From positions 1 to 40,079 of the forward strand of contig DUPO01000053.1 of NCBI GenBank assembly GCA_012838275.1: 40,079 nt of DNA, written 5' to 3'. Both the position numbers and the translations under genes were made by a program. Source of the stretch: Spirochaetales bacterium. Lineage in GTDB: Bacteria; Spirochaetota; Spirochaetia; Sphaerochaetales; Sphaerochaetaceae. The notes beneath the pieces are model-generated. The model saw only the letters and a program-made list of their open reading frames with translations. It was not told the origin of the DNA and made no database searches. Within the stretch, counting starts at the first letter, position 1. Each line of letters opens with the position of its first letter. Positions 6,662 through 29,760 of the stretch are shown here, one piece after another.

Positions 6662-6680
6662 GCTAAGGAGAGAGGTAAGT

Positions 6681-9784: not shown

Positions 9785-10210
9785 ATGCTAAAAAACATTC
9801 CGTCAATTCTGAGTCCTGAGCTTTTGAAGGTCCTCATGGAAATGGGTCATGGGGATGAGTTGGTCATAGGAGATGGGAACTTCCCAGCCGCTTCCATGAA
9901 TGAGCGCGTCATCCGTCTCGATGGGCATGATGTCCCATCGATTCTTGAAGCCATCCTCAAACTGTTCCCCCTTGATACGTATGCCGAAAACGCCGTGCTT
10001 ATGGAAAAGGCTCCTGGCGATAGTGTCGAGACACCCATCTGGGCAGAGTACGATAAGATTGCCAAGAAAGGGGACCCTGCTTTCAAGGGCTTTACCTTCA
10101 TCGATAGGTTTGCCTTCTATGAGCGGTCACAAAAGGCCTATGCCATCGTGGCTACCGGCGAAAAAGCCCTATACGCCAATGTATTGCTGAAGAAAGGGGT
10201 GGTGGTCTAA
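9785..10210 (+). CDS. fucU: L-fucose mutarotase (RbsD/FucU family)
   Basis: This is a 141-aa RbsD/FucU-family mutarotase that speeds interconversion of alpha- and beta-L-fucose so that the isomerase receives its preferred anomer. The family core MGHGDELVIGDGNFPA is present, with catalytic H22 at the same position as in E. coli FucU, and the C-terminal GEKALYANVLLKKGV strand matches the family. The start is preceded by a CAAGGAG ribosome site. It is divergent from fucI and convergent with the AraC-type regulator, with only 2 bases between the two stop codons and no terminator there. Ribose pyranase (RbsD) is the alternative family assignment; the fucI context favours FucU. Confidence 0.9.
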   Translation: MLKNIPSILSPELLKVLMEMGHGDELVIGDGNFPAASMNERVIRLDGHDVPSILEAILKLFPLDTYAENAVLMEKAPGDSVETPIWAEYDKIAKKGDPAFKGFTFIDRFAFYERSQKAYAIVATGEKALYANVLLKKGVVV

Positions 10211-11111: not shown

Positions 11112-11158
11112 GGCGGATTTTCCAAAAGGTGTCAGACTTGTATATAGGAGATACAACC

Positions 11159-12409: not shown

Positions 12410-13485
12410 GCATTGATACCCTGCTCTCTGAATCACAGAGGTATGGAAGCGATGAACGCTTCGTCTTGCTGGGTGGAGGGAATACCTCCTATAAGAAGGA
12501 TGGGGTCCTCTATGTAAAGGCTTCTGGCAGCGAGTTGGCAAGTATAGGCCCCAAGGGCTTTGTGAAAATGGATCTCGCCCGTATGGATTCCATATGGGCT
12601 AACACCTACAGCTCTGATGACGATGAGCGTGAAGAAGAGGTGCTTAAGGATATGATGGCCTGTCGCCTAAAGGGAGAGGGTTCCCGTCCGTCGGTGGAGG
12701 CTTTGCTGCATGCACTTCTGCCTTTCTCCTATGTGGTGCATCTCCATCCGGCCCTGGTGAATGGGATAACCTGTTCTGTCGAAGGGAAGCGAGCCATTGG
12801 ACGACTGTTCCCCGATGCCCTGTGGATAGAGCTGGTCAAACCGGGCTTTATCCTTGCAAAGATAGTCAGGCAGCGCCTGGCCGAGCAAAAAGAGCTGAGC
12901 GGCAAGATTTCCTCTGTGATATTCCTCCAGAACCATGGGGTGTTCGTAGGTGCTGAGAGCCTCGAGGAGATCGCAACCCAATACGATGAGATTCTCAAAA
13001 GGATTGATGCGCAACTGGTCCGTAGGCCTGACTTCACCCCGATGGGCATTGAGGAAAAGAGGCGGGTGGCTATTGTTGCTAGTTTGGAAAAGCTCACAGG
13101 GGAGAAAGTTGTCTCTGCCATGAATCGTGAGTTCTCCCGTTATCTTGCCACTGTTGATGCTTTCGCCCCTGTTGCGTCCTCATTTACTCCCGACCACATT
13201 GTCTACAGCGGATTCAAGCCGCTTTGGGTGGGAGAGGGGGAGTCCGTGGATGAGGCTTTTGCTGAGTATGAGAAGCTCTACGGCACTGAACCGAAGATCG
13301 TCGGTGTGCAGGACACCGGGGTTTTCTCGATAGGGGAGAAACCTCTGCCGTTATTCTTCGATACCGTAAGGGTCAGTGTCTATACCGAGAGTTTTGGTGG
13401 CCCGTTATTCATGGATGAGGATATGATCCAGTTTATCCGGAATTGGGAAGTTGAGAAGTATCGGGCTTCCCTGCCAAAGGCCTGA
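12406..13485 (+). CDS. Class II aldolase, rhamnulose-1-phosphate type (RhaE-like)
   Basis: This is a 359-aa class II aldolase/adducin-family protein, predicted to cleave L-rhamnulose-1-phosphate (and perhaps L-fuculose-1-phosphate) to dihydroxyacetone phosphate and L-lactaldehyde. The zinc-site histidines are H112 and H114 (VHLHP) with H177 (QNHG), E98 lies in SVEALLH, and the phosphate-binding GGGNTS lies near residue 23. It resembles the aldolase half of the large aldolase/short-chain dehydrogenase fusion proteins (YuxG/RhaEW type, ~700 aa) rather than the ~275-aa E. coli RhaD. It ends at the equivalent of the domain junction (FIRNWEVEKYR), without the dehydrogenase domain. A separate SDR occurs at 25904. 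Confidence 0.87.
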   Translation: MSIDTLLSESQRYGSDERFVLLGGGNTSYKKDGVLYVKASGSELASIGPKGFVKMDLARMDSIWANTYSSDDDEREEEVLKDMMACRLKGEGSRPSVEALLHALLPFSYVVHLHPALVNGITCSVEGKRAIGRLFPDALWIELVKPGFILAKIVRQRLAEQKELSGKISSVIFLQNHGVFVGAESLEEIATQYDEILKRIDAQLVRRPDFTPMGIEEKRRVAIVASLEKLTGEKVVSAMNREFSRYLATVDAFAPVASSFTPDHIVYSGFKPLWVGEGESVDEAFAEYEKLYGTEPKIVGVQDTGVFSIGEKPLPLFFDTVRVSVYTESFGGPLFMDEDMIQFIRNWEVEKYRASLPKA

Positions 13486-13495
13486 GCTATCTGAT

Positions 13496-13536
13496 CCGGG
13501 TTTCCCGGTTACATATAGATTTCGGATTTTCCGAAA
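13496..13536 (+). promoter_or_regulatory. Two small hairpins upstream of the binding-protein gene
   Basis: CCGGG-TTT-CCCGG (13496-13508) and TTTCGGA-TTT-TCCGAAA (13520-13536) lie in the 73-bp gap before the ABC binding-protein gene. They could protect the 5' end of a processed message or tune translation. I see no convincing separate promoter here. Confidence 0.4.
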
Positions 13537-13558
13537 AGAAGAAAAAAGGAGAGTTTGT

Positions 13559-14575
13559 ATGAAGAAAACACTGTTGGTCGTTTTGATCATTGCCATTGCA
13601 ATGGGAACCGTGTTTGCACAGGGCGCTAAAGAAGACGCTTCAGCAAAAGGGACAAAAGAGATCGTCATTCTTGGAAAGAGCATGGGAAACGGATTCTTTG
13701 ATGCTTGTTTCAAGGGAAGTGAAGAGGCAGCAACTGAAATCGGTGGCATAAAGACCACGTATATGGCGCCTCCACAGGCAACTGCCGAGGGTCAGATTGA
13801 AATTATCGAGACTCTTATCGCACAGCGTGTCGATGGTATTGCAATATCCGCCAACGACTCAGATGCTCTCATCTCCGTTGCCAAGAAAGCGATGGCTGCT
13901 GGTGTGAAGGTGATTTCCTTTGATTCAGGGATCAACGTAGGCGGACGCATCGTCGATCTTCTGCCAAGTAATGCCGAACTTATCGGTCGCCAGCAGATTC
14001 AGCTTGCGGCAGAACTTACAGACTATGCCGGTGAAGTGGCTGTCCTCTCAGCTTCCGCCCAGGCAACAAACCAGAACCTCTGGATTGACTGGATGAAAGA
14101 AGAGATCAAGGATCCCAAGTACTCAAAGATGAAGCTTGTTGAAGTTGTCTATGGTGATGATGCCCCGGACAAGAGCTATCGTGAAGCTGTCTCCTTGATG
14201 CAGAAGTATCCCAAGCTCCAAGCCATCATTTGCCCGACCACTGTTGGTCTGCTTGCAACAGCCCAGGCTGTGAAGGATGCTGGTAAGGTTGGTGTTGTGG
14301 AAGTTACCGGTCTTGGCCTTCCTTCAGAAATGAAGGGATACATCCTTGATGGCACCTGCCGTCAGATGGCTCTGTGGAACCCCATCGATCTTGGGTATAC
14401 CTCCACCTACATCCTCAATGCACTCATTGAAGGTACCACCAAAGCCAATGTTGGTGACGTGATTCCTGCAGGACGCATGGACTCTGTAAAGGTTGAAAAA
14501 GATGGTCTGATCTACATGAGCACTCCTTATGTATTCAACAAGGACAACATCGAGCAGTACGCTGCAATTTTCTAA
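13559..14575 (+). CDS. rhaS: Sugar ABC transporter substrate-binding protein (rhamnose, RhaS type)
   Basis: This 338-aa exported protein belongs to the periplasmic-binding-protein family 4 (ribose/rhamnose type). Residues 1-20 are a signal peptide (MKK start, hydrophobic core, cleavage likely after VFA). No lipobox cysteine is present, so it should be free in the periplasm. The mature protein starts QGAKED and shows the family's first-lobe strand KEIVILGKSMGNGFFDACFKG and the hinge-region stretch IDGIAIS-like (VDGIAISANDSDAL). The ATG at 13559 follows AAAAGGAGAG. Its place between rhaA/aldolase and the rest of the importer supports L-rhamnose as ligand, with L-fucose possible. The strong hairpin after it fits higher expression of the binding protein than of the membrane components. 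Confidence 0.88.
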   Translation: MKKTLLVVLIIAIAMGTVFAQGAKEDASAKGTKEIVILGKSMGNGFFDACFKGSEEAATEIGGIKTTYMAPPQATAEGQIEIIETLIAQRVDGIAISANDSDALISVAKKAMAAGVKVISFDSGINVGGRIVDLLPSNAELIGRQQIQLAAELTDYAGEVAVLSASAQATNQNLWIDWMKEEIKDPKYSKMKLVEVVYGDDAPDKSYREAVSLMQKYPKLQAIICPTTVGLLATAQAVKDAGKVGVVEVTGLGLPSEMKGYILDGTCRQMALWNPIDLGYTSTYILNALIEGTTKANVGDVIPAGRMDSVKVEKDGLIYMSTPYVFNKDNIEQYAAIF

Positions 14576-14587
14576 AATGGTCCTCTC

Positions 14588-14624
14588 TTGCTCCCGCCTT
14601 TTATGGGCGGGAGCAATTTCTCTT
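14588..14624 (+). terminator. Intra-operon terminator/attenuator after the binding-protein gene
   Basis: Perfect 11-bp arms (14588-14598 and 14606-14616, core GCTCCCGCC/GGCGGGAGC) enclose a 7-nt loop and are followed by a T-rich run (TTTCTCTT). It probably causes partial termination and stabilises the upstream mRNA, giving excess binding protein. Confidence 0.8.
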
Positions 14625-14655
14625 GTGATCAAGCGTATCGGCTGAAGGAGGGGCA

Positions 14656-16170
14656 ATGCAAAAGGCATTGTTGGAAGTACAAAATCTAACGAAGATATTC
14701 CCTGGCATTCGTGCACTGGACGATGTTCATCTGTCGATTCGCAGTGGAGAGGTGCATGCGCTCATCGGCGAGAATGGTGCGGGCAAATCAACTCTTGTAA
14801 AAATTCTCACTGGGGTGTATTTCCCAACCAGTGGGGTGATTGAGCTGGAGGGAAAACCCATCTCATTCAAAAATGCGATCGAAGCCCAGGAGGCCGGCAT
14901 TGTAGCCATCCATCAGGAAGCCTCGATGTTCCCTGAACTAAGTGTTACTGAGAACATCTACATGGGACACCACATTCGTAATGAAAAGACACGCAAGCTG
15001 GATTGGAAAGCGATGACCGAACACACCAGAGTCCTGCTTTCTCAAATGAAGCTCGATATCAATCCCGATACTCTGGTAAAGAATCTCAGCGTTGCACAGC
15101 GACATATGGTTGAGATCAGTAAGGCCCTCTCTCTGGATGCAAGGCTGGTCATCATGGATGAGCCGACTTCAGCTTTGACAGGCAGGGAGGTAGAAGACCT
15201 TTTCAGGATAGTGAGGGAGCTACGGGATAGCGGTAAGGCGATCCTGTTCATCTCACATAAGTTCGCTGAAATATTTGAAATTTGTGACTATTTCACGGTT
15301 TTGCGTGATGGTCAGTATATAGGTGAAGGGGAAGTCAGAAAGAGTAGTGAAGACGACATCATTCAGATGATGATCGGACGCAGCGTCGATCAGATGTACC
15401 CAGAGCACACTACCCATACAGGAGAGAAGATACTTGAGGTCAGGGGCCTTTCTCAGTTGGGAGCATTCAAGGACATCAGTTTTGATCTGCACCGTGGTGA
15501 GATTTTGGGATTGTTCGGACTGGTGGGGGCCGGACGTACCGAAGTGGTTCGTACCATCTTTGGCATAGATAAGGCTGATGGCGGCTCAATGAGCATCGAA
15601 GGCAAACCCTACAATCCTCGGAACCCTCAGGACGCCATGCGTAGGGGCATTGCCCTGGTTCCGGAAGACCGCCAGAAGCAGGGCTTGGTCCTGCAGATGT
15701 CTCTTACCCACAACATATCCCTTCCCATGCTCACCAAGCTCTGTTGGAAGGGGCTGGTTACCAAGGGCAAGAGCGAGAAGACCTATGTGGAAAAGCAAGG
15801 CAATGAGATGGAGATCAAGGCCGCTGGCTATCATGTCGATGCCGAGACCCTCTCCGGTGGAAACCAGCAGAAGGTTGTGTTGGCAAAGTGGATAGGAACT
15901 GACCCGAAGATTCTCATTCTGGATGAACCGACTAAAGGTATCGATGTGGCGACCAAAGCCGCTGTGCATGAATTCGTATGTGAGATGGCCAGCCGGGGGG
16001 TTGCCGTTATCCTCATATCGTCTGAGCTCCCTGAAGTGATTGGAATGGCTGACCGCGTCATGGTTATGCACGAGGGCATTCAGACAGGATTTATAGACCG
16101 TAAGGATCTCAGTGCAGAACTGGTGATGCGCTATGCTATCAAAGAAGTAAAGGAGGTCACCCATGCCTGA
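14656..16170 (+). CDS. rhaT: Sugar ABC transporter double ATP-binding protein (RhaT type)
   Basis: This 504-aa protein has two ABC domains, as in RbsA, XylG and RhaT. Domain 1 has Walker A GENGAGKST (residues 38-46), signature LSVAQRHMVEI and Walker B LVIMDEPTSAL. Domain 2 has the usual degenerate Walker A (GLVGAGRTE), a full LSGGNQQKVVLAKW signature and LILDEPTKGID. It powers import through the two permeases that follow. The start follows GAAGGAGG. The last 8 bases overlap the first permease gene, indicating translational coupling. Assignment to rhamnose rests on operon context. Confidence 0.9.
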   Translation: MQKALLEVQNLTKIFPGIRALDDVHLSIRSGEVHALIGENGAGKSTLVKILTGVYFPTSGVIELEGKPISFKNAIEAQEAGIVAIHQEASMFPELSVTENIYMGHHIRNEKTRKLDWKAMTEHTRVLLSQMKLDINPDTLVKNLSVAQRHMVEISKALSLDARLVIMDEPTSALTGREVEDLFRIVRELRDSGKAILFISHKFAEIFEICDYFTVLRDGQYIGEGEVRKSSEDDIIQMMIGRSVDQMYPEHTTHTGEKILEVRGLSQLGAFKDISFDLHRGEILGLFGLVGAGRTEVVRTIFGIDKADGGSMSIEGKPYNPRNPQDAMRRGIALVPEDRQKQGLVLQMSLTHNISLPMLTKLCWKGLVTKGKSEKTYVEKQGNEMEIKAAGYHVDAETLSGGNQQKVVLAKWIGTDPKILILDEPTKGIDVATKAAVHEFVCEMASRGVAVILISSELPEVIGMADRVMVMHEGIQTGFIDRKDLSAELVMRYAIKEVKEVTHA

Positions 16171-17164
16171 CAATAGCTTTTCCCAATTTGTACGACGGAC
16201 TTTTGCCAGGCGAGAGGCGACTCTCATGGTCCTGCTTGTGGTCCTGCTGGTTCCCATAACCGTTCGCTCTCCGCAATTTCTCTCTCCCAAGAATATAAGT
16301 ACCATTCTCAATGATATGGCGATTCTCGTCATTGTGGCTATTGGGCAGTTTTACGTGATACTTTCAAATGGTATCGACCTTTCAGTCGGATCGGTCATAG
16401 CCTTCACCGGTATGGCCTGCGGGATGATAAACGAGAGCTTTCCCCAGGTGCCTGTCGGGCTGTTGCTGCTTGTCGGTATGGGTATTGGCGCCGGTTTGGG
16501 CCTGGTCAATGGAGTCCTGGTTGCCTACGGCAAGATACCCCCGATTATCACTACGCTTGGGACGATGAGTATCTTCAGGGGGATGACCTTCCTTCTGAGT
16601 AAAGGGACGTGGGTTACTGCCCATGAGATGACTGATTCCTACATTGCCCTGCCTCGTACCACCTTTCTGGGTATTTCGTACCTGTTATGGATAGCTCTGT
16701 TCGTTATAGTCCTGTTCTACTACTTCAGTCGGAATACCCGCACTGGACGTGAGATTTACGCTATCGGTGGAAATCCCACTGCAGCCAAGTTTGTCGGTGT
16801 CAGTGAGAGCAGGATCCGCCTGGTGGTGTTCCTGATTTCAGGAACACTCTGTGGCCTTGCCGGGTCCTTGTGGACCGCCCGCTACGCCTCCGCGGTCAAT
16901 GAGATGGCTACAGGCTTTGAGATGCAGGCAGTCGCTGCCTGCGTGCTTGGCGGGGTGAACTTCTCCGGTGGAGCGGGTGGTATCATCGGGGTTGCTTTGG
17001 GCACGCTCTTCTTGGGTGTGGTCACCAATGCTTTGCCGGTAATCTATCTCTCGGTGTTTTGGCAGACTTTCGTACAGGGCCTGATAGTACTGATGGCCTT
17101 GGCCCTGAACACGATCAGTGACCAGAGGAAAACCAGGAAATTGCTAGAACAGAGGAGAGGGTAG
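16163..17164 (+). CDS. rhaP: Sugar ABC transporter permease 1 (RhaP type)
   Basis: This 333-aa inner-membrane permease is of the ribose/xylose/rhamnose type (BPD_transp_2), with about 8-10 hydrophobic segments. Family signatures visible are LSNGIDLSVGSVIAFTGM near residue 70, YAIGGNPTAAKFVGV near 205, and the C-terminal LGGVNFSGGAGGIIGVALG. It overlaps the ATPase gene by 8 bases and is 4 bases from the next permease, with which it presumably forms a heterodimeric channel. Confidence 0.92.
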   Translation: MPDNSFSQFVRRTFARREATLMVLLVVLLVPITVRSPQFLSPKNISTILNDMAILVIVAIGQFYVILSNGIDLSVGSVIAFTGMACGMINESFPQVPVGLLLLVGMGIGAGLGLVNGVLVAYGKIPPIITTLGTMSIFRGMTFLLSKGTWVTAHEMTDSYIALPRTTFLGISYLLWIALFVIVLFYYFSRNTRTGREIYAIGGNPTAAKFVGVSESRIRLVVFLISGTLCGLAGSLWTARYASAVNEMATGFEMQAVAACVLGGVNFSGGAGGIIGVALGTLFLGVVTNALPVIYLSVFWQTFVQGLIVLMALALNTISDQRKTRKLLEQRRG

Positions 17165-17168
17165 AGCT

Positions 17169-18209
17169 ATGAGTGAGAAAAAACAATTTGTGGCTCAAGG
17201 CCGCCTGATCGATGAGATGTCCCTGAAGAACCGACTTGTAGAACTCTTCACCAAATGGGAGGTTATCCTATCCTTCCTCTTTGTGGTTGTTTTCATATTC
17301 TTTACCAACATGTCCCCTTATTTCCTGGATTGGTTCAATCTGATGAATGCGACGTTCCAGTTTTCGGAGAAGGCCATCCTGGCTCTCCCTATGATCTTCA
17401 TCATCATGTGTGGGGACATTGATATTTCCATCGCCTCCATAATAGCCCTGTGTGCTTACGTGATAGGCATCTCAGCCGAGGCAGGGGCGAGCATCCCTAC
17501 GCTTATCGTTCTCTCGCTTCTTGTAGGCAGTGCAGCTGGCTTGGTAAACGGATTGCTCATTACCGGCTTGAACATGCCGGCAATCGCCGTGACTCTGGCA
17601 ACCCAGAACATCTACCGTGGAATAGCCACCGGGATGCTTGGTGAGCATGCCTGTACTAAATATCCCCAGGGTTTCGGTTTCTTCGGCCAGGAATTCATTC
17701 CTGGAACCATCATACCCTTTGCCTTTGTGCTCTATCTGGCCCTGATGCTGGTATTTTTCTTTGTGCTTCATAAGACAGCCTATGGAAGGCGTCTCTATGC
17801 AATTGGCAACAGTGCCGAGACGGCAAGGTTTTCTGGTATCAACGTTCGTAGGACAAGAATTATCAACTACACGCTTACCGGATTCTTTTGTGGAATTTCT
17901 GCAGTATTGCTTGCCAGCCGAATCCTTTCTGTCAGGTCGAACATTGCTACCGGATGGGATCTGGAAGTCATCACGCTTGTAGTGCTGGGTGGTGTCTCCA
18001 TCTCCGGAGGAAGGGGTACTGTATTTGGGGTCTTTATCAGTTCCCTGCTGGTAGGGTACTTGAAATTCGGCATGGGCCTGCTTAAGTTCTCAGGCACTGT
18101 GATGACCATTGTCATCGGGTCACTGTTGATCATTGCTGTCCTGCTTCCGAGACTGCTGGATATCTATAAGGCCAACCGTAAGCTAAAGATACAACAAGGA
18201 GGGCTCTGA
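17169..18209 (+). CDS. rhaQ: Sugar ABC transporter permease 2 (RhaQ type)
   Basis: This is the second 346-aa BPD_transp_2 permease. It has the same signatures in variant form: MCGDIDISIASIIALCAY near residue 80, YAIGNSAETARFSGINVRR near 210, and LGGVSISGGRGTVFGVF near 280, with hydrophobic segments throughout. The N-terminal ~30 residues are polar and cytoplasmic. The first permease is its likely partner. The rhaM start follows one base after the stop, behind a CAAGGAGGG ribosome site that lies inside this gene. Confidence 0.91.
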   Translation: MSEKKQFVAQGRLIDEMSLKNRLVELFTKWEVILSFLFVVVFIFFTNMSPYFLDWFNLMNATFQFSEKAILALPMIFIIMCGDIDISIASIIALCAYVIGISAEAGASIPTLIVLSLLVGSAAGLVNGLLITGLNMPAIAVTLATQNIYRGIATGMLGEHACTKYPQGFGFFGQEFIPGTIIPFAFVLYLALMLVFFFVLHKTAYGRRLYAIGNSAETARFSGINVRRTRIINYTLTGFFCGISAVLLASRILSVRSNIATGWDLEVITLVVLGGVSISGGRGTVFGVFISSLLVGYLKFGMGLLKFSGTVMTIVIGSLLIIAVLLPRLLDIYKANRKLKIQQGGL

Positions 18210-18617: not shown

Positions 18618-19373
18618 ATGGTGGGAATTTCTCCCAGAGAAGCCAAAATCCTTGAACTGCTTCGTAGTGGTAAGGAATATCCTGTGAAAAAGCTCAGTGA
18701 AGAGCTCGGTGTCTCAGCTGTTACCATTCGTGGGGACCTGCGCGACCTTGATTTCAAAGGTCTTGTTGTCCGTTCACATGGGAGGGTGGTAGCGGCATCC
18801 TCCCCACAATCACTCCTTCGGAATTCATCCAACACTCCCCAGAAGGAACTTATCGCCAAAGCGGCCGCCACCCTCGTTTCAGATGGTGACTTCATTATGA
18901 TTTCAAACGGTTCCACCTGTTCGCTCATTGCAAGGCACTTGTATGGGCTCAAGAGCATTAAGGTGGTGACCAACTCAACACTCCTGCTCCCTTACGGAAG
19001 GGCCAACCCCATGTTGGACATAACCCTTGTAGGAGGGGAGTACCGCCCCCAGGCAGAAGCTCTGGTAGGGCCTGTAGCCATCAGCCAGATAGAGAGCTAC
19101 CATGTTTCAACGGCCTTTTTCGGTACCGACGGCATCACGCTGGAACATGGCCTTACCACCTCCCTGATAGAGAACGCCCAGGTGTTGCAGCGCATGTGCG
19201 CCCAGGCAACAAGGCGTGTCCTCTGTGTCGACTCATCCAAAGTCGGCAAGAGGGGCTTCGTCAAGATAATGAGAGCACAAGATATAGATACCATTGTCAC
19301 AGACAGTGGTTTTCCCCAAGACCTGGTAGTCCAGCTCGAGGAGCTGGGCGTAGAGGTCATCATAGCCCGATAG
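18618..19373 (+). CDS. DeoR-family transcriptional repressor
   Basis: This 251-aa DeoR/GlpR-type regulator has an N-terminal winged helix (about residues 5-57; REAKILELLRSGKEY, then the recognition region LGVSAVTIRGDLRDLD). The C-terminal sugar-phosphate sensor domain contains ISNGSTCSLIARHL, TLVGGEYRPQAEALVG, FFGTDGI and CVDSSKVGKRGF. Family members respond to phosphorylated sugars, so rhamnulose-1-phosphate or a product of the downstream enzymes could be the inducer. The gene has its own promoter and leads the E2-E3-E1-PHP-SDR-ADH-rhaB block; the E2 start lies only 15 bases after its stop, suggesting co-transcription. The recognition helix has VTIRGDL where most members have VTIRRDL. Confidence 0.92.
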   Translation: MVGISPREAKILELLRSGKEYPVKKLSEELGVSAVTIRGDLRDLDFKGLVVRSHGRVVAASSPQSLLRNSSNTPQKELIAKAAATLVSDGDFIMISNGSTCSLIARHLYGLKSIKVVTNSTLLLPYGRANPMLDITLVGGEYRPQAEALVGPVAISQIESYHVSTAFFGTDGITLEHGLTTSLIENAQVLQRMCAQATRRVLCVDSSKVGKRGFVKIMRAQDIDTIVTDSGFPQDLVVQLEELGVEVIIAR

Positions 19374-19388: not shown

Positions 19389-20708
19389 ATGGCGCAACAA
19401 GTTGTAATGCCCAAACAAGGAAACACGGTAGAGTCATGTATTATTGTTGAATGGAATGTGAAAGTCGGTGACCAGGTGGCCATCGGCGATATCCTCTGTT
19501 CGGCTGAGACAGATAAATCTACCATCGATGTCGAGTCGACAGCCGATGGCACCATTTTGGCCCTGTTGTACGAAGAGGGGGATGAAGCCCCTGTCATGGA
19601 AGCCATCGCAGTCGTTGGGGAGAAAGGGGAGAAGGTTGAAATTGCCACCTCTTCCAAAAAATCCGCCTCCGACGCAACGGTTGCCAAAGAGGAGACAAGT
19701 GAGCCTGTAGTTCCTGTCTCAACAACAGCCCAGACGGCTCAAGGTTCGAGCCCGAGGGCGAGGAACCTTGCCTCCTCACTTGGGATCCCTCTTGCATCCC
19801 TTTCGGCGACAGGTCCGAAAGGCAGGGTAATCGAGCGGGATGTGCTCAGCGCATCTTCACAACCCCTTACCCCTGCGGCAAGACAGGCTGCACTCAAAGA
19901 TGGCATCCTCGCTCCTAAGGAAGGAAGCGGCATAGGTGGGCGAGTCCTCGCTTCTGATCTTCAGAAAGGGCAGCCAGTCGCAACTTCCCTGCCAGTTGCC
20001 CCTGTTGAAGGAACGGTTACCGAGATTCCTGTGAAGGGTGTGAGAAAGGTCACCGCCCGCAGGATGATGGAGTCTATTCATGGGACGTGTCAGCTGACGC
20101 TGCACGCCTTTGCCGATGCAACGGCCCTGAAGCGCCTGCGTGCAGGGTTCAAGGGTAGTAAGGAAGATCTCGGACTCTCTGGTGTCACTATCAATGACCT
20201 CATGCTCTTTGCTGTCTCTAGGACCCTTACCCAGTTCCCAGCTTTTAACGCACATTTCCTTGGGGACAAGATTCTCCAGTTCTCCTCGGTCCATCTGGGT
20301 ATGGCAACGGATGCGCCGCGAGGCCTGTTGGTCCCTGTCATCCGAGACAGCCAGGCATTGAGCTTGAAAGCCATCTCCGTTGAAGTGAAACGTCTGGTAG
20401 CCAAATGTTTTGATGGAAGTGCCACCCCTGACGAACTCAGCGGCAGTACCTTTACGGTAAGCAATGTCGGTTCCTTCGGCATCGAGGCTTTCACTCCGGT
20501 GCTTAACGTGCCTGAAGTTGCAATCCTCGGGGTGGGGACCATTGTTCCCAAGCCTGTCGAGGCAAAGGACGGATCAGTCTCCTTTGTCCCGCATATCGGG
20601 CTCTCCCTTACCATGGACCACCAGGCAGTGGACGGTGCTGATGCAGCTCGCTTCTTGAAAGCCCTGATGGATAACATCGCTTCGATCGACCTTTTGTTGG
20701 CATTGTAG
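19389..20708 (+). CDS. 2-oxoacid dehydrogenase E2 (dihydrolipoyl acyltransferase)
   Basis: This 439-aa acyltransferase core of a 2-oxoacid dehydrogenase complex carries one lipoyl domain (about residues 1-78) with lipoyl-lysine K43 in AETDKST. A linker follows, then a peripheral-subunit-binding domain (SSPRARNLASSLGIP... GRVIERDV, ~119-156) and a second similar segment (LTPAARQAALKDG... GRVLASDL, ~160-195). The catalytic domain ends with HQAVDG (H411, D415). The acyl substrate (pyruvate, acetoin-derived or branched-chain) cannot be read from these motifs. It is followed after 9 bases by E3 and then by the fused E1, so a full complex is encoded. Two E3/E1-binding-like segments in one chain are unusual. 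Confidence 0.9.
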   Translation: MAQQVVMPKQGNTVESCIIVEWNVKVGDQVAIGDILCSAETDKSTIDVESTADGTILALLYEEGDEAPVMEAIAVVGEKGEKVEIATSSKKSASDATVAKEETSEPVVPVSTTAQTAQGSSPRARNLASSLGIPLASLSATGPKGRVIERDVLSASSQPLTPAARQAALKDGILAPKEGSGIGGRVLASDLQKGQPVATSLPVAPVEGTVTEIPVKGVRKVTARRMMESIHGTCQLTLHAFADATALKRLRAGFKGSKEDLGLSGVTINDLMLFAVSRTLTQFPAFNAHFLGDKILQFSSVHLGMATDAPRGLLVPVIRDSQALSLKAISVEVKRLVAKCFDGSATPDELSGSTFTVSNVGSFGIEAFTPVLNVPEVAILGVGTIVPKPVEAKDGSVSFVPHIGLSLTMDHQAVDGADAARFLKALMDNIASIDLLLAL

Positions 20709-20717
20709 GAGTATCTG

Positions 20718-22070
20718 ATGGAAACATATGATCTTATAGTAGTAGGCTCGGGCCCGGGCGGATATGTAGCCGCAGAGCGTGCTGGAGCCTTGGGAAAAAA
20801 GGTCCTCCTCATCGAGAAGGGCTTCCTGGGTGGGGTTTGCACCAACTTGGGATGTATCCCTACCAAAAGTCTCTTGCATGGGGCCAAGCAGTATAAGCAT
20901 GCCCTCGAAGGGGAAAAAATCGGCCTTGAGACAAAAGAGGTAACGTACAACCTTGAGAAAGCCATGGCCTGGAAACAGGATACCGTGGAGACCCTGCGGG
21001 GTGGTATCGGATTTCTGATGAAATCGAACAAGGTGGAGACCGTCTTTGGCGAAGCCGAGTTTGTTGATGCGCACACGGTACAGGTAGGAGAGACAACCTA
21101 CAAGGGTGACTATCTGATAGTCGCTACCGGCTCTTCTCCGTTTGTGCCTCCCATTCCTGGCAGCAACCTTCCGCATGTGCTCACCAGTGATGCGATACTC
21201 GCTGTTGAGAAGATTCCCGAAACCCTTACCGTTATCGGAGGGGGAGTTATTGGGGTTGAGTTTGCCTCCTATTTCTCCATGATAGGCACGAAAGTGACCG
21301 TCATTGAGATGATGGAAGAGATCCTTCCCATGATGGACGGGGACTTTGCCAAGATGATGCGTCGCGAGATGAAAGGTGTCGATTTCAGGCTTGGCTGCAA
21401 GGTTGAAGAGGTCACCTCTGAAGGGGTTGCCTACACCGATGCCAAGGGCAAGAAGCAGACTCTCGCTTCAGAGCTTGTGCTGATGAGTGTCGGTCGCAAG
21501 CCAAATGTTGCGGGTCTGGAGAACCTCAAGCTTGATATTGCTAGAGGTGGAGTGCTCGTCAATGACCGGCTGCAGACCAACGTTGCCAATGTCTATGCTA
21601 TCGGGGATGTTAACGGAAAATCCCTCTTGGCCCATAGCGCCTCAAGGATGGCCGAGGTAGCCATTGCCAATATTTTTGGCACGACAAAGCAGCGGATGCG
21701 TTACAACGCGATCCCTTGGGCTGTCTACTCTTCACCGGAAGCCGCAGGATGTGGCCTTACCGAGACCGAAGCAGCGAATCAAGGCATTTCGATCAAGAGT
21801 GAAACCGTACAGATGCGTTCCAACGGCAGGTTTCTTGCTGAACATGGGAAGCGCGCCGGAGGGTTGGTGAAAGTCATTGCCAGCACCGAGACAAACGTCA
21901 TATTGGGCGTCCATCTGCTGGGACCCTACAGCAGCGAGATGATCTGGGGAGCGGCGGCCATCATAGAGGCCGAACTGCGCATCCAGGATGTCAAGGAAAT
22001 TGTATTCCCTCACCCCAGTGTGTCCGAGCTCATTAAGGATGCTTGTTTCGCACTTGATCACACACTATAG
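20718..22070 (+). CDS. lpdA: Dihydrolipoamide dehydrogenase (E3)
   Basis: This 450-aa FAD flavoprotein reoxidises dihydrolipoamide on E2 and passes electrons to NAD. It has the FAD-binding GSGPGGYVAAERAG near residue 10, the redox-active disulfide C41-C46 (GGVCTNLGCIPTK), the NAD-binding GGGVIGVEFASYF near 175, the second FAD motif YAIGDVNG, and the C-terminal HPSVSE (catalytic His-Glu pair). It has no extra lipoyl domain. The gene lies between E2 and E1, and the AGGAG ribosome site overlaps the E2 stop. Confidence 0.95.
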   Translation: METYDLIVVGSGPGGYVAAERAGALGKKVLLIEKGFLGGVCTNLGCIPTKSLLHGAKQYKHALEGEKIGLETKEVTYNLEKAMAWKQDTVETLRGGIGFLMKSNKVETVFGEAEFVDAHTVQVGETTYKGDYLIVATGSSPFVPPIPGSNLPHVLTSDAILAVEKIPETLTVIGGGVIGVEFASYFSMIGTKVTVIEMMEEILPMMDGDFAKMMRREMKGVDFRLGCKVEEVTSEGVAYTDAKGKKQTLASELVLMSVGRKPNVAGLENLKLDIARGGVLVNDRLQTNVANVYAIGDVNGKSLLAHSASRMAEVAIANIFGTTKQRMRYNAIPWAVYSSPEAAGCGLTETEAANQGISIKSETVQMRSNGRFLAEHGKRAGGLVKVIASTETNVILGVHLLGPYSSEMIWGAAAIIEAELRIQDVKEIVFPHPSVSELIKDACFALDHTL

Positions 22071-24552: not shown

Positions 24553-24572
24553 ATACAACTGACGAGGTGCCC

Positions 24573-25889
24573 ATGGATTTGCAACAACTGGAATTGGCAA
24601 TAAATAGTCCTGAGAAACCGGTTCGCCTGGAGGCGAGCCGGTCCCTCGGCTCTATGATAGAAAGCGGCTCGCTGAGGCGAAAAGCCCTGGAGGAAGTGAA
24701 TAACCACGTGCACACCACATGGTCCTTCAGTCCTTATGAGCCCTCAGCGGCTGCCTATGCCGCCTGGAAGGCAGGACTGGGGATTGTCGGGAGCATTGAC
24801 CACGACAGTATCGGAGCGGCTGAAGAGCTGCTCCAGGCAGCAAGGAACATAGGCATTGCAAGTACTGTCGGTTTTGAGATGCGGGTGAGTTTTCTGGACA
24901 CCCCTCTCGCTGAGAGGAAGATCAACAACCCCGACTCCCCTGGAATTGTCTATATGTGCACTCATGGGGTGCCTCATCAGAAGATTGACGAGGTTGCAGC
25001 TTTCCTCAAGCCTGTGAACAAACAGCGCAACTTGCGCAACAAGGCTCAGGTGGAGGCGTTGCAATCCCTGGTCGGCCGCTATGGATTTGACCTTGATTTT
25101 GAACGCGATGTGGTCCCTCTCTCTCGCTTTGCCGAGGGAGGTTCCATCACCGAACGCCATATCCTCTATGCTATGTCCAGGCAGTGCATAGCCATGTTCG
25201 GCAAGGGTGAAAAACTGCTCAGGTTCCTGGAAAAGGAGTTGAAGGTTGCCCTTTCCCCACAAGTGAACTCCCTCTTGCTCGATCCTTTAAACCCTCATTA
25301 CGCGTATGACCTGTTGGGAGTGTTCAAGAGTAACTTCCTTCCCCGTTTCTTTATCCAGCCGGCAAAGGCCGAGTGTCCCGATGTACGGGACGTGGTTGCA
25401 TTTGGCAACAGCATCGGAGGCATACCGGCGTATGCATACCTGGGTGATGTCGCACAGAGTGTCACCGGTGACAAGAAGGCTGAAAAGTTTGAGGATGACT
25501 TTCTGGTTGAGCTGATGGACCTGCTGGTCGATATCGGCTATCCGGCTATCACGTACATGCCCCCGAGGAATACCCTTGAGCAGATGCACAGGTTGCAGAG
25601 CCTTGCCAAGGAACGCAATCTTATGGAGATCAGCGGCGTTGATATCAACAGTTCCAGACAAAGCATGAACTGCCCTGAATTGTTGCAACCCTCCTGCAGG
25701 CATCTTGTCGATTCGGCATGGGCTCTTGTTGCTCATGAGAAGCTGGCGACAGTGGATGCCGAACTCGGGCTGTTTCACCCTGACAATCCGCATGCAGGGA
25801 AAAGTCTCGATGAGAGACTTGCCCTGTACGCAAGCCTTGGGAGGAAGATGGATAGCCATCACCCCTTGGATCTCATAAAATTATTTTGA
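24573..25889 (+). CDS. PHP-domain protein, predicted metal-dependent phosphoesterase
   Basis: This 438-aa protein has a PHP (polymerase and histidinol phosphatase) metal site: H45 and H47 (NNHVHTTWSFSP), D76-H77 (SIDHDS), E102 (GFEMRV) and H131 (CTHGVPH). The central part is helical, and later stretches (GIPAYAYLGD about residue 288, MEISGVDINSSRQ about 352) probably complete the metal-binding barrel. PHP enzymes usually hydrolyse phosphate esters. The length is much greater than that of histidinol phosphatases, and no nucleic-acid domain is seen. It sits between E1 and the SDR in one tight operon, so a sugar-phosphate or acyl-related substrate is likely. The exact function is not recognised. 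The ATG at 24573 fits the GACGAGG site better than the GTG at 24567. Confidence 0.75.
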   Translation: MDLQQLELAINSPEKPVRLEASRSLGSMIESGSLRRKALEEVNNHVHTTWSFSPYEPSAAAYAAWKAGLGIVGSIDHDSIGAAEELLQAARNIGIASTVGFEMRVSFLDTPLAERKINNPDSPGIVYMCTHGVPHQKIDEVAAFLKPVNKQRNLRNKAQVEALQSLVGRYGFDLDFERDVVPLSRFAEGGSITERHILYAMSRQCIAMFGKGEKLLRFLEKELKVALSPQVNSLLLDPLNPHYAYDLLGVFKSNFLPRFFIQPAKAECPDVRDVVAFGNSIGGIPAYAYLGDVAQSVTGDKKAEKFEDDFLVELMDLLVDIGYPAITYMPPRNTLEQMHRLQSLAKERNLMEISGVDINSSRQSMNCPELLQPSCRHLVDSAWALVAHEKLATVDAELGLFHPDNPHAGKSLDERLALYASLGRKMDSHHPLDLIKLF

Positions 25890-25903: not shown

Positions 25904-27064
25904 ATGGTCCGTTTTACAGAAAAGATACTTGAAGAGCTGCCCTCGGTCATCAGGGGACTTACCTTTGATGGGGAAAAAGGCTTGTTCATACACACAACTC
26001 AGGGCAAAAAGCCCTCGTTGACCCTTTCTGCTGTTGAAGATGGCGCTGAAGTGTTGCGAACAACCGCCCGATGGATGGTTGAATTCACTGAGTATTGTGG
26101 CAAGAAGAACCTTTATCCTGCAGTAATCGGCATCGAGGGTAGAGAGATACAGTTTGGCCTTGGTACCAACTACGATGAGGCTGTCAGGGGTGAAGGGGTC
26201 TCTTCGATAGTCTCCCTGCCTCCCTCGACAAACCGCAATGACGTAGTCAGGGACAAGATAGTCCTGGTCACCGGCGGCGCCCAAGGCTTTGGAGAGGGGA
26301 TGGTCCGCTCACTAAGTGAGATGGGTGCATTTGTCTATATCGCCGATATGAACCGACAGGGTGCGGAGGACCTCGCTTCAAGTCTCAACTATGTCGCATG
26401 TATCACCGTTGCCAAGGCCCTGTATGTGAATGTGACGGATGAGGCATCGGTTGAGGCGATGATGGATGAGGTCGCCCGACAGACCGGAGGGTTGGATCTG
26501 TTTGTGAGCAATGCCGGAGTGCTTCGTGCAGGATCTGTGAAGCAGATGAAATTGAAGGACTTTCAGTTTGTCACCGATGTCGACTATACCGGATTTTTCC
26601 TTTGCAGCAAGCACGCCTCAATCATGATGGCCCTGCAAAACACCGCTTCGGGAAGTTACTTCACAGATTTGATAACGATCAGCAGCAAATCCGGTTTGGA
26701 GGGGTCCAACAAGAATGCAGCTTACGCTGGAGCCAAATTCGGCACCATCGGGCTTACCCAGAGTTTCGCCCTCGAGCTTGTCGAGGACAACATAAAGGTC
26801 AATGCGATCTGTCCGGGAAATTTCCTCGACGGTCCGCTTTGGTCCGATCCTGAAAAGGGTTTGTTCGTTCAGTATCTCAAGACAGGAAAAGTTCCGGGTG
26901 CCGAGACTGTAAAGGATGTTAGAAAGTTCTATGAAGCGAAAGTCCCTATGAACCGCGGTTGTCAGACCGAGGATGTCGTACGGGCTATTTGTTACATTGT
27001 CGAACAAAAATATGAGACAGGTCAGGCAGTGCCGGTTACCGGTGGCCAGGTCATGCTCAACTAG
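25904..27064 (+). CDS. Short-chain dehydrogenase with unknown N-terminal domain (SorD-like)
   Basis: This 386-aa protein has a classical SDR domain from about residue 117: TGGAQGFG (123-130) binds the cofactor, D148 after the second strand favours NAD, NAG occurs in SNAGVL, and the catalytic residues are S261, Y274 and K278 (YAGAK). The C-terminal VPVTGGQVMLN is typical. Residues 1-116 form an extra domain of unknown function (IRGLTFDGEKGLFIHTTQGK, then a Thr/Arg-rich helix) not found in ordinary ~250-aa SDRs. Sorbitol-6-phosphate 2-dehydrogenase is a reasonable guess because a SorE-like gene follows 9 bases later. The dehydrogenase half of a YuxG/RhaEW-type aldolase fusion is an alternative, which would then act on lactaldehyde. 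Confidence 0.82.
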   Translation: MVRFTEKILEELPSVIRGLTFDGEKGLFIHTTQGKKPSLTLSAVEDGAEVLRTTARWMVEFTEYCGKKNLYPAVIGIEGREIQFGLGTNYDEAVRGEGVSSIVSLPPSTNRNDVVRDKIVLVTGGAQGFGEGMVRSLSEMGAFVYIADMNRQGAEDLASSLNYVACITVAKALYVNVTDEASVEAMMDEVARQTGGLDLFVSNAGVLRAGSVKQMKLKDFQFVTDVDYTGFFLCSKHASIMMALQNTASGSYFTDLITISSKSGLEGSNKNAAYAGAKFGTIGLTQSFALELVEDNIKVNAICPGNFLDGPLWSDPEKGLFVQYLKTGKVPGAETVKDVRKFYEAKVPMNRGCQTEDVVRAICYIVEQKYETGQAVPVTGGQVMLN

Positions 27065-27073
27065 GAGAGATGT

Positions 27074-28336
27074 ATGAAAACACGTGCAGCAAGACTTTAT
27101 GGAGTCAATGATATTCGAGTTGAAGAGTTTGAACTTCCCGCCATCAAGGATGATGAGATCCTGGCCAAGGTAGTTACCAACAGCATTTGTATGAGCGATC
27201 ACAAGGCAGCGGACCAAGGCGGAAGCCACAAGAGAGTCCCTGATGATGTTGCTACGAACCCGATCATCATCGGACACGAGTTCTGTGGTGAGATCGTCGA
27301 GGTAGGTAAAAAGTATAAGGACAAGTTCAAAGCCGGGTCAAAATTCACGATTCAGCCGGCCTTGAACTATAAGGGGACTCTTGATGCCCCCGGTTACTCC
27401 TTTCCCCACATCGGAGGCAATGCCACGTATGTGATCATCCCTCACCAGGTGATGGATATGGATTGCCTGCTCACCTATGACGGGGATTCATATTTCCTCG
27501 GGGGCCTTGCCGAACCTGTCTCCTGTGTTGTCGGGACATTTCATGCGATGTACCATACCAAAGGTGGCTCCTACAAGCACCATATGGAAATTGTAGAAGG
27601 TGGAAACCTCGCTATTCTTGCAGGTGTCGGTCCTATGGGCCTGTGCGCCATCGACTATGCCATCCATCGCGATTTGAGACCGGGCAGACTGGTAGTCACC
27701 GATATTGATGATGCGAGGCTCGAGCGTGCGGCTAGCCTCTACACCGTGGAAGATGCAAAAAAACACGGGGTCGAACTTGTATATCTGAACACCAAGTCCG
27801 TTGAGGATCCCGTAGCGAAGCTCATGGAACTTACCAATGGTGAAGGGTATAACGATGTTATCGTGATGGCTCCGGTGAGAGCCTTGATCGAGCAGGCGGA
27901 CAGCATCCTAGGCAAGGATGGATGTCTCAACTTCTTCGCAGGCCCCGAACGCACTGATTTTAAAGCCTCCCTGAACTTCTACAATGTCCACTATGCATCC
28001 ACACATATTGTTGGAACCAGTGGTGGAAATACTGAAGATATGCGCGAGTCTTTGGAAATGATGGGCCATGGGAAAATCAATCCTGCAGGGCTGGTCACCC
28101 ATATCGGAGGCTTGAATGCCGTTCCTGAGACTGTGATAAATCTTCCTTCAATCCCAGGAGGAAAGAAGATCATCTACACCCATTTGGATTTCCCTCTGAC
28201 TGCCCTTGATGACTTTGCAGAGGTAGGGAAGACCAAGCCGCTCTTTGCAGAGCTTGATAAGATTGTCAAGAAGCACAATGGACTATGGTCAGCAGAAGCT
28301 GAAGCATATCTCATGGCTAACTGCAAGGAGAAGTGA
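27074..28336 (+). CDS. Zinc-type dehydrogenase, L-sorbose-1-phosphate reductase (SorE)-like
   Basis: This 420-aa medium-chain dehydrogenase has a catalytic zinc site (C39, H68, E69 in GHEF) and a Rossmann fold (LAGVGPMGLCAIDYA about residue 178, then TDIDD, favouring NAD). The four-cysteine structural zinc loop of ordinary alcohol dehydrogenases is absent, and inserts around residues 95-135 and the long C terminus resemble SorE, which reduces L-sorbose-1-phosphate to D-glucitol-6-phosphate. Together with the SorD-like SDR upstream it could form a two-step redox isomerisation of a sugar phosphate. No sorbose PTS is present, so the natural substrate may differ. The stop overlaps the rhaB ATG by one base. 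Confidence 0.8.
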   Translation: MKTRAARLYGVNDIRVEEFELPAIKDDEILAKVVTNSICMSDHKAADQGGSHKRVPDDVATNPIIIGHEFCGEIVEVGKKYKDKFKAGSKFTIQPALNYKGTLDAPGYSFPHIGGNATYVIIPHQVMDMDCLLTYDGDSYFLGGLAEPVSCVVGTFHAMYHTKGGSYKHHMEIVEGGNLAILAGVGPMGLCAIDYAIHRDLRPGRLVVTDIDDARLERAASLYTVEDAKKHGVELVYLNTKSVEDPVAKLMELTNGEGYNDVIVMAPVRALIEQADSILGKDGCLNFFAGPERTDFKASLNFYNVHYASTHIVGTSGGNTEDMRESLEMMGHGKINPAGLVTHIGGLNAVPETVINLPSIPGGKKIIYTHLDFPLTALDDFAEVGKTKPLFAELDKIVKKHNGLWSAEAEAYLMANCKEK

Positions 28337-29760
28337 TGAAGAAGCATATCGCTGTAGACCTGGGTGCCTCCAATGGTCGGGTACTTGTGGGAGATCTTAC
28401 GAATTTTGAGGTGGTACACCGGTTCGTAACCCACAATGACCAGATCCTAGGGGAGTTTTATTGGAATCTGCTCGGCCTGTTCTCTGAGATCAAGATCGGG
28501 TTGAAGAAGGCTTTCGCCAAGTATGGTGATGAGATCAGTTCGATTGGCATCGATACATGGGGAGTCGACTATCTCCTCCTTGACGAGAAAGGTTCTGCTG
28601 TCTCGTTATGCTATCACTATCGTGATAACAGGACCGATGGCATGATCGATGAGGTGACAGCGAAACTTGGGGGGAAGATGCGGGTCTTTGAAAGGACCGG
28701 CATCGCCTTCCAACCGTTCAACACCCTCTATCAGCTTGCAGCGATGCAGAAGGACCGACCTGCAACCCTCTCGGCTGCACGTCACTACCTCTCTGTTCCC
28801 GATCTCTTGGCCTATTGGCTGACAGGGGTCATGAAAAACGAGAGAACCCATGCCTCAACGACACAGCTTTATGATCCTTTCGCCAAGACATGGGCTTGGG
28901 ATATCATAGATGAAATGGGTTTTGACAAGGCCCTTTTCGGCGAGATCGTCGATAGCGGTACTGTCGTCGGTCCCCTCACTGCTGCAGTCCGCCATGAAGT
29001 GGGGGCCCCTTCTTCAGCGCTTGTCATTGCAAGCGCTGCACACGATACAGCGAGCGCTGTTTCGGCAGTTCCCGTAGCTAAGGGTGAAGTTCCTCTCTAC
29101 ATCTCCAGTGGGACCTGGTCTCTCTTGGGTGTGGAGATCGAGGAGCCGATCACAACTGCCTTGGCTCTGGAGAGCGGATTCACCAATGAGATAGCAGCAA
29201 ATGGAAATGTCCGCTTTCTGAAGAATATCATGGGCATGTGGATCCAGCAGGAGTGTGTTCGTCATTGGGAGAGCCTGGGAGAGAGTATCTCGTGGAAGGA
29301 TTTGGATGAAGAGACCCTTGCCTGCTCCTCCTACAAGGGATTTGTGGATCCTGCTGACCAACGTTTCCTCAAGCCCAATACCTATGACAATCTTATGGTA
29401 GACCGCATCAGGGATTGGTGTATCGAACACGGTCAGGTACCCCCGTCCACCCATGGGGAGTTCATGGTTGCAATCTATAGGGGACTTGCCAAGGCATACG
29501 CCCTTTCGATCAGGCAACTGCAGGAAATAACTGGGAAAACCTTCACCTCCCTCTACATTATTGGTGGTGGGTGCAAGAATGAGATCCTGGACCAGTGGAC
29601 TGCCACTGAGACCGGGCTCACTGTCTATGCAGGTCCTGTGGAGGCGACAGCCTTGGGCAATACCCTAATACAGATGTATGCAACTGGAGATATTGCAACC
29701 CTGCAAGAGGGGCGGGACATGATCAAGCGGGAACAGAAGGTGAGGGTCTTCAAACCCTAA
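28336..29760 (+). CDS. rhaB: Rhamnulokinase (FGGY family)
   Basis: This 474-aa FGGY sugar kinase phosphorylates L-rhamnulose at O1 with ATP. It matches E. coli RhaB throughout: AVDLGASNGRVLVG at the N terminus, SIGIDTWGVDYLLLD about residue 70, AFQPFNTLYQL, ASHDTASAV-like ASAAHDTASAV, SSGTWSLLGVE, FLKNIMGMWIQQ, and IIGGGCKNEILDQ with GPVEATALGN near the C terminus. The ATG at 28336 follows AAGGAG; a GTG one codon earlier is less likely. It is unusual that the kinase lies ~15 kb from the isomerase and aldolase, at the end of the DeoR-led block. With no fucK in the window it may also phosphorylate L-fuculose. Confidence 0.95.
   Translation: MKKHIAVDLGASNGRVLVGDLTNFEVVHRFVTHNDQILGEFYWNLLGLFSEIKIGLKKAFAKYGDEISSIGIDTWGVDYLLLDEKGSAVSLCYHYRDNRTDGMIDEVTAKLGGKMRVFERTGIAFQPFNTLYQLAAMQKDRPATLSAARHYLSVPDLLAYWLTGVMKNERTHASTTQLYDPFAKTWAWDIIDEMGFDKALFGEIVDSGTVVGPLTAAVRHEVGAPSSALVIASAAHDTASAVSAVPVAKGEVPLYISSGTWSLLGVEIEEPITTALALESGFTNEIAANGNVRFLKNIMGMWIQQECVRHWESLGESISWKDLDEETLACSSYKGFVDPADQRFLKPNTYDNLMVDRIRDWCIEHGQVPPSTHGEFMVAIYRGLAKAYALSIRQLQEITGKTFTSLYIIGGGCKNEILDQWTATETGLTVYAGPVEATALGNTLIQMYATGDIATLQEGRDMIKREQKVRVFKP

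Follow-up and report, generated by a model that had tools for sequence, protein, structure and literature searches.

The polysaccharides of algae and plants, and mucin as well, contain L-fucose and L-rhamnose as major sugars. To our knowledge, all described routes for these sugars make lactaldehyde, or pyruvate plus lactate; the classical pathways comprise an isomerase, a kinase, a class II aldolase, and lactaldehyde reductase, and RhaEW includes a lactaldehyde dehydrogenase. PHP-fold proteins have nine metal-ligand positions, for which the consensus H, H, D/H, H, E, H, C/H, D/N, H is tabulated (PMC3666897, Table 1). Here we analyze a 40,079-nucleotide contig of a Spirochaetales bacterium related to Sphaerochaeta (hereafter, the window, meaning the whole stretch), in which a variant PHP-fold protein is encoded in a deoxyhexose operon. 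This variant is real and well conserved and, as far as our literature search shows, undescribed; no published description of the operon or the protein was found among the CC-licensed PMC papers searched. The larger find is the operon itself.

The PHP gene and its operon

A preliminary description of the locus had placed a frame of about 438 aa between the genes of an E1 component and a short-chain dehydrogenase (SDR), in agreement with the coordinates in Table 1. The gene lies 20 bp downstream of the E1 stop and 14 bp upstream of the SDR gene, and the kinase and zinc alcohol dehydrogenase (ADH) genes overlap by 4 bp; this spacing suggests that the E1, PHP, SDR, ADH, and kinase genes form one transcription unit. 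Among the remaining genes of the window, one at 6612-7676, ahead of the region with the fucose isomerase, encodes a 3-dehydro-L-gulonate 2-dehydrogenase-like protein (NF009750 above cut-off). On the minus strand, 31045-32109 and 32129-33130 encode a further zinc ADH (IolM-like, E 7e-47) and an aldo-keto reductase, near a fructose-6-phosphate aldolase-like protein (34754-35431, above cut-off); these genes perhaps belong to another sugar operon.

Table 1. Features of the window (positions in nucleotides; cut-offs are curated ones)
Feature	Position	Strand	Remark
L-Fucose isomerase	7853..9679	-	TIGR01089 above cut-off
L-Fucose mutarotase FucU	9785..10210	+	NF011949 above cut-off
L-Rhamnose isomerase	11150..12409	+	NF002203 above cut-off; frame open from 11012 upstream
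RhaE-like class II aldolase-fold protein, 359 aa	12406..13485	+	Proposed aldolase or 4-epimerase
Rhamnose-type ABC transporter: RhaS, ATPase, two permeases	13451..18209	+	RhaS above cut-off
DeoR-family regulator	18618..19373	+	
E2 lipoyl acyltransferase	19389..20708	+	
E3 dihydrolipoyl dehydrogenase	20718..22070	+	TIGR01350 above cut-off
E1, fused alpha/beta thiamine-diphosphate dehydrogenase component, 818 aa	22096..24552	+	From ATG 22096
Shine-Dalgarno-like GAGG	24564..24567	+	Ahead of ATG 24573
PHP-fold protein, 438 aa, variant metal site	24573..25889	+	Open frame, ATG 24573, stop 25889; H45, H47, H77, E102, D357 kept; F52, Y289, N359 in ligand places
SDR, sorbitol-6-phosphate dehydrogenase-like	25904..27064	+	N-terminal extension of 115 aa
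Zinc ADH, scyllo-inosose 3-dehydrogenase/ketose reductase-like	27074..28336	+	
FGGY sugar kinase, rhamnulokinase-like	28333..29760	+	

Homologues of the PHP protein are present in 37 of 60 relatives searched, and 18 sequences align at 47-87% identity, on which grounds a chance open reading frame was rejected. The gene was found in 70 of the 198 genomes of the host's class. A scan of GTDB contigs yielded 307 confirmed relatives, and the best 80 (L051-L130), which serve for the locus counts, come from Spirochaetes (Sphaerochaeta, Treponema, Alkalispirochaeta, Marispirochaeta, and others), Kiritimatiellales/Pontiellaceae, other Verrucomicrobia, Atribacterota, and two other bacteria; the Verrucomicrobia relatives include one MAG filed as Akkermansia muciniphila. 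The plasmid collection contained no match to P0001. Two PHP homologues (G204:C233:16489-17733 and G137:C128:40199-41419) each contain one in-frame TGA, which may be due either to decay or to assembly error.

The order DeoR-E2-E3-E1-PHP-SDR-ADH-sugar kinase recurs in Spirochaetes, Kiritimatiellota/Verrucomicrobia, and Atribacterota. Within the best 80 of the 307 loci, E1 is directly upstream of PHP in 57 of the 77 that extend 600 bp or more to that side, and SDR is directly downstream in 61 of the 73 that extend 1,500 bp or more to the other. Where 4 kb of downstream sequence is available, 44 of 54 loci contain the ADH, and 39 of all 80 contain an FGGY kinase. PHP is still beside SDR in L143 and L144, though the E1 of genome G166 lies in L145; since this adjacency is kept where E1 is elsewhere, the PHP protein probably handles the product or substrate of SDR. 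PHP homologues with neither E1 nor SDR nearby occur in L094, L105, L108, L112, L116, and L117 and belong to Treponema (L094 and L108), Verrucomicrobia, and other bacteria; in L094 and L108, a kinase belonging to one cluster adjoins PHP (FGGY_C_2 type in L094).

Association with L-fucose and L-rhamnose isomerases

The sugars of the operon, L-fucose and L-rhamnose, had not been named in the preliminary description. Across the 198 class genomes, L-fucose isomerase (fucI, leaving out one weak match in G064) is encoded in 66 of 70 PHP-positive versus 21 of 128 PHP-negative genomes, L-rhamnose isomerase (rhaA) is encoded in 61 of 70 versus 12 of 128, and either isomerase is encoded in 69 of 70 versus 29 of 128 (Fisher P 1.5e-28, a value that ignores shared ancestry and is a guide only). 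The sole PHP-positive genome without either isomerase, G160, is 68% complete, with a partial match. For the follow-up, 40 of the 70 PHP-positive genomes were hand-picked among those at least 90% complete (not all such genomes) and set against all 29 PHP-negative genomes with either isomerase. In this comparison, E1 is present in 40/40 versus 12/29, ADH in 35/40 versus 8/29, and the RhaE-like aldolase-fold protein in 36/40 versus 5/29. The assignment of the PHP protein to a specific role in this pathway is well supported.

Among the scanned neighbors of E1 in PHP-negative genomes, no common substitute gene takes the place of PHP; these neighbors encode radical SAM/LAM, ATP-grasp, MFS, PLP enzyme, JAB, spondin-N, and lyase_1 proteins, and the same scan also returned one protein without a match and, next to E1 in the PHP-positive G166, VTT and glyoxalase proteins. 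Three PHP-negative genomes of one family, all with L-fucose isomerase, carry a DeoR-E2-E1 operon without PHP, SDR, or ADH (L131-L133 in G063, G100, and G136), and the complex in these loci may serve another substrate.

Fold and metal site of the PHP protein

Pfam gave a single match, to PHP (PF02811; E 0.034, 14.9 bits, below the gathering cut-off of 26.4), and found no second domain of any known PHP protein in the 438 residues, as the preliminary description had anticipated. The sole NCBIfam match is to NF041577 (3',5'-nucleoside bisphosphate phosphatase; E 1.7e-5, residues 41-109 only), with 24.1 bits against a curated cut-off of 400. The AlphaFold model, built with a 66-sequence alignment, has a pLDDT of 94.4, and the best solved structures listed by VIA-align are 3o0f (Z 25.7), 3e0f (25.6), 2yb1 (23.9), and RNase AM 9etk (23.9). 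Eight PHP paralogues encoded in other genomes of the class served for comparison; hhalign matched the family to them at 98.9% over residues 42-358, and both this value and the Z scores of 25.7-23.9 identify a PHP barrel. The paralogues keep the canonical HxH, SDG, DHD, E, H, AHP, and GSDxH motifs. A housekeeping role (polymerase, HisK, or RNase AM) was rejected, because same-class genomes own these separate canonical paralogues and no Pfam or NCBIfam cut-off of a characterized PHP subfamily is reached. Judged from the model, the protein has the fold of the RNase AM/3',5'-bisphosphatase branch in variant form. The least certain stretch of the model, 297-299, lies inside a strongly conserved loop (YLGDV..TGDKKAEKFED), which would suit closure over a substrate.

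Ligand positions were assigned by hhalign and HMMER alignments; position 9, one residue past the hhalign block, was read from the contiguous GVDIN/GSDxH motif, a pairing that also appears in the phmmer alignment to 3e0f (weak second stretch). Positions 1, 2, 4, 5, and 8 are H45, H47, H77, E102, and D357, invariant in 66/66 sequences. Position 3 is F52 (Phe in 64/66 and Tyr in 2/66; consensus D/H), and positions 7 and 9 are Y289 and N359 instead of His in 66/66, so that the nine-ligand set is broken at these three positions in every sequence. At position 6, hhalign puts a gap; H131 (His in 58/66, Gln in 8/66) may not be a ligand, because the invariant Y127 shares its strand. The residues singled out in the preliminary description (H45, H47, D76-H77, E102, and H131) do stand at those positions, but its statement that all the first metal ligands are visible fails at F52 and is doubtful at H131, and the later ligands that it omitted are changed too. 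Structure prediction, which it had proposed as a check of ligand completeness, bore out the PHP fold, and the alignments showed the ligand set to be incomplete.

We take the ligands of YcdX to be grouped into three sites, of which one consists of H, H, E, and D. Under this grouping, only the H45/H47/E102/D357 site is complete, so that, as far as the alignments tell, one of three metal sites looks intact, and the protein founds a variant PHP subfamily, probably with one catalytic metal. Given a single site that looks complete, we would not choose a standard PHP phosphatase as the first reading. Of the earlier proposal of a specific phosphatase or hydrolase step, the specific step is borne out by the conserved operon, the isomerase co-occurrence, and scores below the cut-offs of every characterized PHP subfamily, while the assigned chemistry finds no support in the reduced site. 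A sugar-phosphate phosphatase of the same operon that uses fewer metals and trims a phosphorylated intermediate or a dead-end phosphate is possible, and we consider it unlikely rather than favored: its nearest structures are phosphoesterases, the only NCBIfam match is to a phosphatase, and a helix with an R-x-x-R motif is common to the PHP protein and 3e0f (weak second stretch), but the three canonical ligands are replaced throughout the family, the phosphatase score falls far below its cut-off, and, by reasoning, a phosphatase would in part undo the work of the kinase encoded in its own operon.

The degenerate metal site would also suit a noncatalytic protein that assists the E1-E2-E3 complex in a structural or regulatory way, and the frequent E1 adjacency points the same way; there is a precedent in the PHP domain of E. 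coli Pol III, for which such a role has been proposed (PMC3666897). Against such a partner, the aligned sequences all retain one complete metal site along with many charged residues, and in G166, the PHP gene sits with RhaI and a kinase while E1 is elsewhere (L144, L145), which leaves this reading very improbable.

The E1-E2-E3 complex and the two dehydrogenases

In the PDB, E1 comes closest to the E1 beta chains of pyruvate and 2-oxoisovalerate enzymes, but its scores fall short of the curated cut-offs for pyruvate E1 alpha and beta (TIGR03182, 183.6 versus 393.85; NF006667, 232.3 versus 321). Pyruvate:ferredoxin oxidoreductase was found in 10 of 11 tested genomes, including that of the window; it is missing in G135, whose E1 could therefore be a pyruvate enzyme. 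A generic pyruvate dehydrogenase was rejected on these two grounds, and the E1 of the operon is probably not a pyruvate enzyme, a point absent from the preliminary description. In the plasmid collection, its nearest relatives are the fused E1s of the alphaproteobacteria Rhizobium, Pleomorphomonas, and Agrobacterium (49-50% identity), and the separate E1 chains of Clostridioides and Shinella show 31-38% identity. In L151 (Rhizobium pRL8), L152 (Pleomorphomonas), and L153 (Agrobacterium pAt), the gene of the fused E1 precedes separate genes for a lipoyl protein and for an alpha/beta hydrolase; the best NCBIfam match of the hydrolase is to acetoin dehydrogenase acetyltransferase (AcoC-type), below cut-off. 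Sugar ABC transporters and a sugar kinase lie near E1 in all three loci, and a psicose 3-epimerase-like protein lies in one; by gene content, these plasmid loci probably encode an acetoin-like sugar-cleaving complex that is not annotated as such. A second fused E1 paralogue, 47-50% identical and with its own E2, occurs in L148 (G084), L149 (G125), and L150 (G066) and appears to form a sister complex.

The SDR resembles sorbitol-6-phosphate dehydrogenase (5o3z, E 4.5e-45). The ADH matches NF041097 (scyllo-inosose 3-dehydrogenase) over most of its length (E 1.5e-25), with 89.7 bits against a cut-off of 450. The SDR and the ketose-reductase-like ADH seem suited to the redox steps proposed below.

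Aldolase and lactaldehyde reductase

Thirty-five selected loci were examined for aldolases; those without PHP or isomerase were not counted in the PHP-positive classes, L042 was excluded because it duplicates L071, and L141, which has both isomerases and one RhaE-like protein next to RhaI, was left out. A RhaE-like protein was found in 9/9 rhamnose-type PHP loci (L062, L070, L071, L106, L107, L125, L130, L143, and L144), and a RhaE-like, FucA, or RhaD relative was found at E 1e-6 in 0/9 fucose-type PHP loci (L034, L088, L090, L091, L096, L109, L129, L142, and L171). The PHP-negative L166 and L167 have the classical layout, with FucI, a kinase, and FucA together. Genome-wide, G135 (93% complete) has no Aldolase_II match, and the fucose-only genomes G056, G057, and G161 each have 2-3 unlinked class II aldolases. 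In L082, L143, and L144, an aldolase-fold protein and an SDR are fused (about 655-700 aa) and adjoin PHP; in the window, some 12 kb separates their genes, and the SDR retains its N-terminal extension of 115 aa.

Lactaldehyde reductase scores above cut-off in 1/40 PHP-positive versus 8/29 PHP-negative genomes (P 0.003, for hand-picked PHP-positive genomes and ignoring shared ancestry) and, within the family of the window, in 0/5 versus 7/8 (P 0.005); no FucO above cut-off was found in the genome of the window. At E 1e-100 without the cut-off, the counts are 5/40 versus 9/29, so that the contrast rests on the curated score.

These data bear on the classical course, in which rhamnulose- or fuculose-1-phosphate would be cleaved to DHAP and L-lactaldehyde, and SDR, ADH, PHP, and E1-E2-E3 would turn lactaldehyde into acetyl-CoA via lactate/pyruvate or hydroxyacetone. 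The RhaE-like protein in 36/40 hand-picked PHP-positive genomes and in every rhamnose-type locus speaks for it, as do the bifunctional aldolase/SDR fusions beside PHP; the fucose-type loci without aldolase, G135 without Aldolase_II, the near absence of lactaldehyde reductase, and an SDR of sorbitol-6-phosphate dehydrogenase type speak against it, and we regard it as distinctly unlikely.

Proposed route

From the operon and its distribution, we infer, tentatively and at somewhat less than an even chance, that the PHP protein is a dedicated variant enzyme in a lactaldehyde-free route from L-fucose and L-rhamnose to acetyl-CoA. The isomerase and kinase would yield a ketose-1-phosphate. In the rhamnose branch, the aldolase-fold protein would feed substrate in, perhaps by acting as a 4-epimerase, since rhamnulose and fuculose are C4 epimers that have no other difference; AraD is an epimerase with a class II aldolase fold. 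It is just as possible that the RhaE-like protein is an ordinary aldolase. The SDR and zinc ADH would then bring a carbonyl to C5, so that a methyl ketone comes to stand beside CHOH (CH3-CO-CHOH, the acetoin motif), and E1-E2-E3 would cleave this acetoin-like end to acetyl-CoA (C5-C6), NADH, and a four-carbon sugar phosphate, which would pass to transketolase. The PHP protein would act with a single metal on a phosphorylated intermediate, before or after the E1-E2-E3 cleavage; we rank an isomerase- or epimerase-type role that keeps the phosphate first, dephosphorylation second, and a noncatalytic role last. In favor of the lactaldehyde-free route, a transketolase gene follows the module in 7 of the best 80 of 307 loci (three Pontiellaceae, one Kiritimatiellales, and three Spirochaetes). 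On the other side, an aldolase could be encoded elsewhere, as the unlinked class II aldolases of G056, G057, and G161 illustrate; ADH is missing in 5/40 PHP-positive genomes, so that the two-dehydrogenase scheme is not universal; and E1 is kept in 12/29 PHP-negative genomes, in some as DeoR-E2-E1 alone.

Pontiella strains grow on fucose and rhamnose, and their description states that fucK was identified in neither strain and aldA was not identified in F1; on fucose, F1 formed acetate, H2, ethanol, and lactate, and the products of F21 include 1,2-propanediol (PMC7356697). Pontiella sulfatireligans F21 carries the operon (L104), with a rhamnulokinase-like FGGY kinase (472 versus 528 bits). Its 1,2-propanediol suggests that lactaldehyde is formed in F21 as well, and this speaks against the new route being the sole one there.

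If true, the acetyl-CoA route would explain how fermenters make acetate, H2, and ethanol from fucose without the known genes, and the PHP protein would be one that has left phosphoester chemistry. A bolder form, possible but doubtful, would be a third 6-deoxyhexose route, in which a C5 carbonyl shift and a lipoyl complex give acetyl-CoA and tetrose phosphate without aldolase, lactaldehyde, or microcompartment, and in which the PHP fold, in this single-metal protein, would for the first time serve to rearrange a sugar phosphate rather than to hydrolyze an ester. Sphaerochaeta halotolerans (L061), Alkalispirochaeta alkalica (L091), and Pontiella sulfatireligans (L104) are cultured organisms at hand for tests.

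Comparison with described systems

The PHP protein shares with the 3',5'-nucleoside bisphosphate phosphatase/RNase AM branch (2yb1, 9etk, and 3o0f; Z 23.9-25.7) the PHP barrel with a helical insertion, the HxH first motif, DHD, the Glu, and the Asp of the last motif. Unlike that branch, it is about 150 residues longer, has ligand positions 3, 7, and 9 replaced, contains a conserved loop (293-308) that is mostly missing in the paralogue alignment, and sits in a sugar operon. The zinc ADH resembles IolM scyllo-inosose 3-dehydrogenase through NF041097, but its score is below the cut-off, and there are no inositol genes among those scanned in the window; an IolM/IolN-like inositol route was rejected, the resemblance being limited to the ADH and the literature search giving nothing useful.

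With the classical L-fucose/L-rhamnose pathways, the window has the isomerases, mutarotase, kinase, and RhaS transporter in common, whereas the fucose-type PHP loci are without aldolase and lactaldehyde reductase is nearly absent from PHP-positive genomes. The RhaEW bifunctional aldolase/short-chain dehydrogenase has its counterpart in the aldolase-fold protein and SDR, fused in three loci; in the window, however, the pair is split, the SDR scores best as sorbitol-6-phosphate dehydrogenase, and PHP and E1 are added. The acetoin dehydrogenase complex (Aco) is approached through relatives of the operon's E1 that neighbor AcoC-type acyltransferase domains; in contrast to Aco, the window combines a fused alpha/beta E1 and an E2 of the canonical PF00198 type, and their deoxyhexose operon also encodes the kinase, SDR, ADH, and PHP proteins.
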